From an uncultured Cryomorphaceae bacterium (lineage in GTDB: Bacteria; Bacteroidota; Bacteroidia; Flavobacteriales; Schleiferiaceae): a stretch of 64,000 nucleotides of DNA. The notes below the pieces were generated by a model. That model saw only the letters and a program-made list of their open reading frames with translations. It made no database searches and had not been told where the DNA came from. The stretch is taken from NCBI GenBank assembly GCA_937120475.1, contig CAKZJV010000007.1:760068-824067 (forward strand), read 5' to 3'. Within the stretch, counting starts at the first letter, position 1. The number at the start of each line of letters is the position of its first letter. Made by a program: the position numbers and the translations under genes. This document shows, piece after piece, positions 55,673 through 57,140 of the stretch.

Positions 55673-56461
55673 TTACTCCTTTCTGAAATTCCGGGTAAAG
55701 TCCCGGCCGTGAATATCACTTATCCGCATAAGATAAGACCCTTCTTTGATTCCTTCCAGTACAATTTTTGCCTTTAGAATGCTTTTACTAAAGCTAATGG
55801 TTTTTATCATTTTGCCTTCTTCAGAAAAAATAGTAATAAGGGAAATAGGCACTTTATTTTCGAAATAAATATTGATTGCTTTACCGGCCGGATTTGGGAA
55901 TACCTTTAACATATTATCATCAATCTGATGGAGAAAAACACTTACCTCTTCTGGCGTGGTTTCACCGGGAAACAGTATTTCGTCCTTAAGGTCAGTTTCA
56001 TCCTCTGGACGTTGTATAACAATGTTTATATCTTCATTGTAGATGAAAGAAATTTTTTCTAAATCAGGATTCTCGAGGAAAATCAAGCGGGCAAGTGGTA
56101 AATAGGACCTTATGGTTTCCATATTGAAGTCATGCCCCATGATATTATCGGTGGCCCGTCCATTAAGAATAGCCCACGTACGGTAACCCGCAGCAAACCG
56201 AACATAAGCGTTTTCCTTGCTTAGTTGAGGTATGTTGCTAAATTGAGTTTTGGCGAGGCAGTCGTCTTCCACACACTCATAACCGGCTGGTACATCAACA
56301 TTGCTGCAGCAGGCCGTTACCCAAACACCTAGTTGCAGTACCTCATCTATTTCCATACACTTATCGCTACCACTGGCAGTTCCCTCCGGACAGATTTCAA
56401 CCTTTCCATAGACCATCGAAGTAGTCATTAGAAAAAGGCCACTTAAGATTATATTTTTCAT
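55673..56461 (-). CDS. secreted protein: novel Cys-rich domain plus T9SS sorting domain
   Basis: This 262-residue protein has a signal peptide (LFLMTTSMVYG), a Cys-rich domain from residue 22 to 70 with Cys24, 35, 51, 52, 63 and 68, a middle region (AAGYRTWAILNGRATDN) and a C-terminal T9SS sorting domain (LKVFPNPAGKAINIYF, ending NFRKE). The Cys domain is shared with the small protein encoded 22 bases upstream (CP, then C, W-V-x-A, C-x-NVD-x-P-x-G). I cannot name the domain. Disulfide-stabilised and surface exposed are inferences. Confidence 0.82.
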   Translation of the reverse strand: MKNIILSGLFLMTTSMVYGKVEICPEGTASGSDKCMEIDEVLQLGVWVTACCSNVDVPAGYECVEDDCLAKTQFSNIPQLSKENAYVRFAAGYRTWAILNGRATDNIMGHDFNMETIRSYLPLARLIFLENPDLEKISFIYNEDINIVIQRPEDETDLKDEILFPGETTPEEVSVFLHQIDDNMLKVFPNPAGKAINIYFENKVPISLITIFSEEGKMIKTISFSKSILKAKIVLEGIKEGSYLMRISDIHGRDFTRNFRKE

Positions 56462-56483
56462 GTCTTTTCTTTTAGAGTTGACA

Positions 56484-56699
56484 TTATTCGCAATTGTGTA
56501 AAAACCAGCCCTGAGGAGGATCTACATTGTCACAATCCGCTTCAACCCACTCATTATCCAGTTTAATCCTGGTGACTCTTAAACACCCATCCCTCGGACC
56601 ACTGCCTCCATCATCCTCATAAGGACACATTATGACATAGGCATAAGCACTGACGACACCAATGAGCGTGCAAATAATTAAAGCTATGATTTTTTTCAT
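56484..56699 (-). CDS. small exported Cys-rich protein, paralogue of its neighbour's N-terminal domain
   Basis: This 71-residue protein starts at ATG 56699 with a signal peptide (IIALIICTLIGVVSAYA). Its mature part has Cys25, 39, 56 and 70 and the segment WVEADCDNVDPPQGW, which aligns with WVTACCSNVDVPAGY of the next gene with the same 16-residue gap between the second cysteine and the C-x-NVD motif. It carries no T9SS domain, so it should stay periplasmic or be lipid-free secreted. The pair likely arose by duplication. Function unknown. Confidence 0.72.
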   Translation of the reverse strand: MKKIIALIICTLIGVVSAYAYVIMCPYEDDGGSGPRDGCLRVTRIKLDNEWVEADCDNVDPPQGWFLHNCE

Positions 56700-56921: not shown

Positions 56922-57140
56922 TATAAAACTGCTGACCCAACCTATGAATTCTCAAATATTGAATATCCCGCGACTAAAGAAGAGAGAAGGTCCAGCTCCT
57001 TCCGGGTTTATGACATACAGGGCCGCCAGGTTATGCAGGGCAACCTGCAATCAGCCAGGCTGGATGTTAGAAAACTCACCCCGGGTTATTACCAGTTAGT
57101 GCTGGAAGATGGCAGCAGTGCCGCCTTTATAAAGCAATAA
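56922..57140 (+). pseudogene. orphan T9SS C-terminal sorting domain, remnant of a lost cargo gene
   Basis: One frame, open from just after TGA 56919-56921 to TAA 57138-57140, reads as 72 residues of a T9SS sorting domain: DPTYEFSNIEYPATKEERR, then SFRVYDIQGRQVMQG, RLDVRKLTPGYYQLVLEDG and the closing AAFIKQ. There is no start codon or signal peptide before it, and the upstream sequence is A+T-rich and uncoded. This is the 3' end of a secreted-protein gene whose body was deleted. An overlapping ATG frame at 56890-57099 is in a different phase and not a real gene. Confidence 0.82.

Follow-up and report, generated by a model that had tools for sequence, protein, structure and literature searches.

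The 64,000-nucleotide stretch analyzed here (hereafter the window), from an uncultured Cryomorphaceae bacterium whose genome is 3.65 Mb long and 99.92% complete, carries two adjacent minus-strand genes whose products almost certainly represent a paired family of exported domains, one member of which is targeted to the type IX secretion system (T9SS). The first gene (56484-56699), an open reading frame (ORF) with homologs at other loci, encodes a 71-residue protein that consists of a signal peptide and a single Cys-rich domain. The second (55673-56461), which follows after a gap of 22 bases, encodes a 262-residue T9SS cargo, for which the ORF, Pfam, NCBIfam and AlphaFold delineate a signal peptide, another copy of the Cys domain, a middle region and a sorting domain. 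The pair is a lineage-specific T9SS cargo, of a known kind, together with an unusual homologous partner gene that has no sorting signal. Judging from sequence, the two proteins are probably exported together and bind either each other or a shared ligand.

A Cys domain common to two adjacent exported proteins

The shared domain comprises about 51-53 residues. The stand-alone copy (56487-56642, minus strand), whose start was set by visual judgement where the signal peptide ends, contains four Cys residues; the fused copy (56246-56404, minus strand; cargo residues 20-72), delimited by alignment, contains six. In both window copies, a first Cys followed by Pro precedes a second Cys, a gap of 16 residues and the motif C-x-NVD-x-P-x-G, with WV ahead of that motif. 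The local alignment score of the two domains is 71, whereas shuffled sequences score 24.0 on average and 64 at most; none of 5000 shuffles reaches 71, nor does any of 5000 with the cysteines kept in place (maximum 56). The shuffle test took in six of the eight copies of the domain, which make nine fused/stand-alone combinations, each with 5000 shuffles. In five combinations the observed score was unreached by any shuffle, and in the other four it was reached by 1, 7, 11 and 21 shuffles (with the cysteines kept in place, by 1, 1, 4 and 10); the weakest combination is that of a second cargo from the same genome, described below, with its own small neighbor. The domain similarity of the two window proteins is due to shared ancestry and exceeds chance.

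The initial annotation had described a Cys-rich domain shared by two adjacent exported proteins, one copy stand-alone and the other fused to a T9SS tail. Both ORFs are where it placed them, the shuffles agree with it on the shared domain, and the tail lies above the Pfam and NCBIfam cut-offs. Its details of the motif extend less far: the exact 16-residue gap is found in all four stand-alone copies and in the fused copy of the window, whereas the other three fused copies have 18 residues; CP is confined to the window pair and absent in relatives; WV varies in relatives as W[VEMQ] and NVD as [NK]V[DNSE]. The motif kept across domain copies is W-x-x-A-x-C-x-[NK]-V-x-x-P-x-G, and eight positions of the alignment, W, P and G among them, are invariant in all eight copies. 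The number of Cys residues per domain is even (4 or 6) in every one of the eight copies, of which seven are different, as would be the case if all of them paired in disulfides. The seventh Cys of the cargoes from two related genomes, G013 and G014, sits in the sorting domain, where a cargo fragment from a third, G012, also has one. The domain is probably disulfide-stabilized.

Both window proteins have an N-terminal signal peptide, as judged by eye. The first Cys lies approximately five residues past the likely cleavage site, and no lipobox was seen by eye before it in either protein, so neither looks like a lipoprotein.

An AlphaFold model of the small domain, made from eight alignment rows, is all-beta with five short strands (predicted local distance difference test, pLDDT, 84.5; predicted template modeling score, pTM, 0.61). 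The cargo model was built from a separate alignment with some rows in common; its overall pLDDT is 72.5 and its pTM 0.42, and its Cys domain has the same five-strand order at lower confidence. The conserved middle region of the cargo (residues 73-165; 55967-56245, minus strand), recognized from the cargo alignments, is predicted with moderate to low confidence as strands around one long helix; it has no convincing match to a known family, and fold searches with the whole cargo are dominated by matches of the sorting domain. For the small domain, the best PDB match by Foldseek has an E-value of 3.9 (14 rows), no chain among the 27 compared by VIA-align reaches Z 2, and the best BFVD match has an E-value of 1.3; these negative results do not in themselves make the fold a new one.

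Searches of known families were similarly unproductive. Neither Pfam nor NCBIfam offers a convincing family for the Cys domain or for the cargo middle region, or any family for the small protein, and PDB sequence profiles give nothing below an E-value of 0.088 for the domain. The sole PADLOC match of the small protein, to a cyclase (E 0.048 over 31 residues), was taken as chance. In PHROGs the best match (E 0.023) is between residues 1-70 of the G013 cargo, signal peptide included, and phrog_26680, a family of unknown function. The same cargo has no tblastn match in a phage collection at E-values up to 1, and no copy occurs in viral contigs or, by tblastn, in plasmids. With regard to the NVEALA peptide family, a Pfam search up to E 10 assigned the small proteins of the window and of G013 to no family, with the proviso that HMMER filters drop most matches above approximately 0.1. 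Keyword searches of open-licence literature, covering titles and the starts of abstracts, returned nothing on the pair or the domain. Consistent with the initial annotation, homologs were found outside the locus and no known family was matched. The Cys domain has no entry in the libraries used here and is apparently restricted to a narrow lineage, within which the pair defines it.

These features bear on an alternative in which the two domains never touch but are duplicated binding modules for one ligand outside the cell or in the periplasm (a glycan, for example), one module being at the surface and one soluble, so that adjacency would reflect co-regulation only. The common strand order predicted for the two domains is in keeping with this, as are the invariant W, P and G among the eight positions kept in all eight copies; nevertheless, the domain matches no known binding family and has neither a sequence nor a fold match in PDB, and we regard this explanation as rather unlikely.

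Distribution, context and divergence of the pair

A second locus in the same genome (G000:C7:2792435-2793428) encodes a stand-alone domain and, downstream of it, a cargo of 269 residues, which shares 36% identity with the window cargo across residues 18-247. When this second cargo is used as the query against 88 genomes of the GTDB family (E 1e-4), 18 genomes match, but 14 of them were rejected as members, the match being limited to query residues from 163 on, that is, to the sorting domain. Full relatives occur in four of the 88, namely the own genome, G012, G013 and G014. Complete pairs are present in G013 and G014, whereas the cargo copy of G012 begins at a contig end, with its Cys domain cut off and any upstream gene out of view. 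Genome sets for the order, phylum and class are samples that partly overlap. In the order, a cargo profile without the tail matches the same four genomes out of 395, and the Cys-domain profile matches three of 395, the domain of G012 being cut off. In the phylum, the Cys-domain profile matches four of 395, the own genome and three others (L057-L059, E 0.002-0.008) that were rejected as members; these matches sit in ORFs of 321, 430 and 438 residues encoding unrelated enzymes, which we take to be a TIM-barrel enzyme and two glutamate dehydrogenases. When 345 genomes from the class are searched with the cargo profile, the own genome matches, and so do two others at chance level. These two were rejected as well: in G863 the match lies inside a 643-residue frame, presumably transglutaminase-like, and in G965 the frame contains three stops. 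Among named genomes, Flavobacteriales bacterium UBA7878 (L047) has the same two proteins as G014, and another locus (L048) belongs to Cryomorphaceae bacterium PBR18_bin05, which places the family in or near the Flavobacteriales. The profile search across Bacteroidota that the initial annotation had proposed thus reveals no wide family, but one confined, in the genomes sampled, to a single GTDB family.

The four complete loci, of which the own genome has two and G013 and G014 have one apiece, all show the two genes adjacent and in constant order, the small gene coming first and the cargo gene following 22, 28, 21 and 21 bases behind. Since G013 and G014 are near-identical at the locus, the four loci amount to three independent contexts. 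No solitary copy of the domain was found with the Cys-domain profile in the 395 genomes of the order or the 395 of the phylum. The window pair is flanked by what we take to be rlmD-like and PF06695-like genes, the second own locus by a presumed pyridoxamine-phosphate-oxidase-like gene, the G013 pair by genes that appear to us SCO1-like and helicase-like, and the G012 fragment by a gene that is presumably dnaG-like. As these neighborhoods differ, a frozen neighborhood does not explain the pairing. The binder/partner relationship suggested in the initial annotation gains from this joint presence at four of four complete loci, one of them with the small gene out of frame; binding itself is a proposal.

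The G+C content of the window pair is 0.40-0.42, compared with 0.45-0.49 in three flanking genes, and a very A+T-rich stretch (G+C 0.23) lies upstream of the pair. In G003, of the same genus, the interval between the presumed rlmD-like and PF06695-like genes holds an unrelated lipoprotein-like ORF of 195 residues (L079 4262-4849, minus strand), and in G004 yet another gene adjoins the gene that we take to be rlmD-like. The slot beside the rlmD-like gene seems to exchange its content, and context and composition fit a unit that may have been gained, lost or moved as a whole. A Bacteroidota-type promoter pattern occurs three times in the entire window against 3.34 expected by chance, and not between the pair and its upstream neighbor.

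Such a patchy two-gene unit, present in only four of 88 genomes of the family, with a G+C below that of its flanks and with other content in its slot in G003, would also suit a toxin paired with a protection protein of the periplasm, in which case the T9SS cargo would act on neighboring cells and the small exported protein would shield the producer. However, no toxin or defense family was matched by the pair in Pfam, NCBIfam or PADLOC, and the residues that are invariant in the middle region do not bring to mind any active site of a known kind. To our knowledge, protection proteins usually share no domain with their toxins. We consider a toxin system very unlikely.

In a tree of the domain (eight copies, seven different) branches are long and no fork is starred; stand-alone and fused copies form two groups whose support of 94/89 falls just under the tool's star, so that the split between free and fused copies is taken as a tendency only. 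This grouping suggests that the division into two versions preceded the spread of the pair. The cargoes split into a group of window and G012 and another of the second own cargo and G013/G014, both supported at 99/99. A comparison of G013 with G014 shows seven synonymous and no nonsynonymous codon changes in the mature small domain, nine and six in the whole small gene, and 37 and 13 in the cargo gene; changes are mostly synonymous, which indicates that both genes are under selection there. It is in this light that tandem duplication with no shared task must be judged, under which the small gene would be a relic left when the cargo gene was duplicated in part. Adjacent homologous genes are what such an event would leave, and the small gene of the second own locus is indeed disrupted (see below). 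On the other hand, the small copies, which come from three loci in two genera, tend to cluster separately from the fused copies, and the purely synonymous divergence of the mature small protein between G013 and G014 implies that selection keeps it there. A relic has, in our estimate, little to recommend it.

Export route and proposed partnership

The sorting domain of the window cargo (residues 187-250; 55712-55903, minus strand) is of T9SS type A, matching PF18962 with 32.9 bits (cut-off 27, E 8.2e-8) and TIGR04183 with 27.4 (cut-off 23). The G013 cargo scores 27.1 against PF18962, just above the cut-off of 27, and the second own cargo 23.9, below it. The predicted fold of the domain matches the C-terminal domain (CTD) of RemA (8gl6_D; VIA-align Z 10.7, root-mean-square deviation 1.8, 76 residues aligned), and three more T9SS CTD entries fall within Z 1 of that match. 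SprA, a protein of the T9SS translocon and the one T9SS component that was searched for, is encoded in the own genome (TIGR04189, 2641.7 bits against a cut-off of 200) and in none of 14 control genomes.

We propose that the two-gene unit exports two versions of one small, probably disulfide-stabilized beta domain. Both proteins would cross the inner membrane by Sec and form intramolecular disulfides in the periplasm, from which the cargo would be taken over the outer membrane by T9SS, to be displayed on the surface or released. The small protein, having no sorting signal, would act as a periplasmic partner of its cargo neighbor, bound before or during export; it could contact the cargo either at the domain that the two have in common or at the middle region or, alternatively, bind the same ligand. 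The initial annotation had envisaged one surface-anchored and one free member. A T9SS tail on the larger protein agrees with the former, whereas the small protein has no T9SS signal and would by default be periplasmic rather than outside. That the two proteins interact physically, or are linked by an assembly step in which both take part, is a tentative proposal based on the sequences, to which we assign somewhat less than an even chance.

Several points weigh against the proposal. Contact between a protein in the periplasm and one on the surface would be short-lived. In the second pair of the own genome, the small gene (L002 1495-1702, minus strand) lies out of frame with the one ATG that could plausibly start it, the break lying within the signal-peptide region and the domain being intact; this may be a real loss or an assembly error, and the second own cargo may thus be without a partner. 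The unit is dispensable, since neither G003 nor G004 (the latter 91% complete), both of the same genus, has a copy. Furthermore, by plain identity the window small copy is not distinctly closer to the second own small copy (30%) than to the fused copies (29-36%); its identity to the small copy of G013 is 42%. A variant of the partnership would make the small protein either a dedicated periplasmic escort that imitates the N-terminal domain of the cargo, with assembly or release controlled by the exchange of one domain copy for the other, or a passenger that T9SS carries out although it has no sorting signal itself; either role seems improbable.

Relation to known systems and minor observations

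T9SS cargoes are many, and a good part have cargo regions of no known task. Like type A cargoes, the window cargo has a signal peptide (by eye), an N-terminal cargo region and a C-terminal sorting domain with the CTD fold. It differs in that its cargo region consists of the Cys domain and a middle region for which no convincing family was found in Pfam, NCBIfam, PHROGs or PADLOC. The constant two-gene unit is well suited to testing whether T9SS cargoes rely on dedicated periplasmic partners or can take passengers along.

The SprB and SprF genes are adjacent. SprF spans the outer membrane, whereas the window partner is a soluble-looking domain of about 51-52 residues, homologous to part of its own cargo. 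With 71 residues, a single 52-residue domain and five short strands, the small protein is not of the outer-membrane-spanning SprF/PorP type. According to PMC12635249, SprB is a T9SS substrate with a dedicated partner, as proposed for the window cargo, and disulfides matter in the SprB-SprF system. Another likeness, to beta-microseminoprotein (1xhh and others), lies in small size, richness in Cys and a weak profile match to the domain (E 0.088 over 26 residues), but the matches span 18-26 residues and are not significant, and the protein is absent from the 14 Foldseek rows.

Downstream of the G013 pair is a Cys-rich, lipoprotein-like ORF of 166 residues (L015 721-1221, minus strand) with no Pfam match; in G014/UBA7878 this ORF is not beside the pair, and one of 231 residues follows instead. 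Finally, just upstream of the window pair and on the opposite strand, 56994-57140 (plus) matches PF18962 (E 1.8e-6, profile positions 5-68 of 75). This sorting domain has no cargo region and no ORF of at least 40 residues in its frame, and is probably what remains of an earlier T9SS gene.
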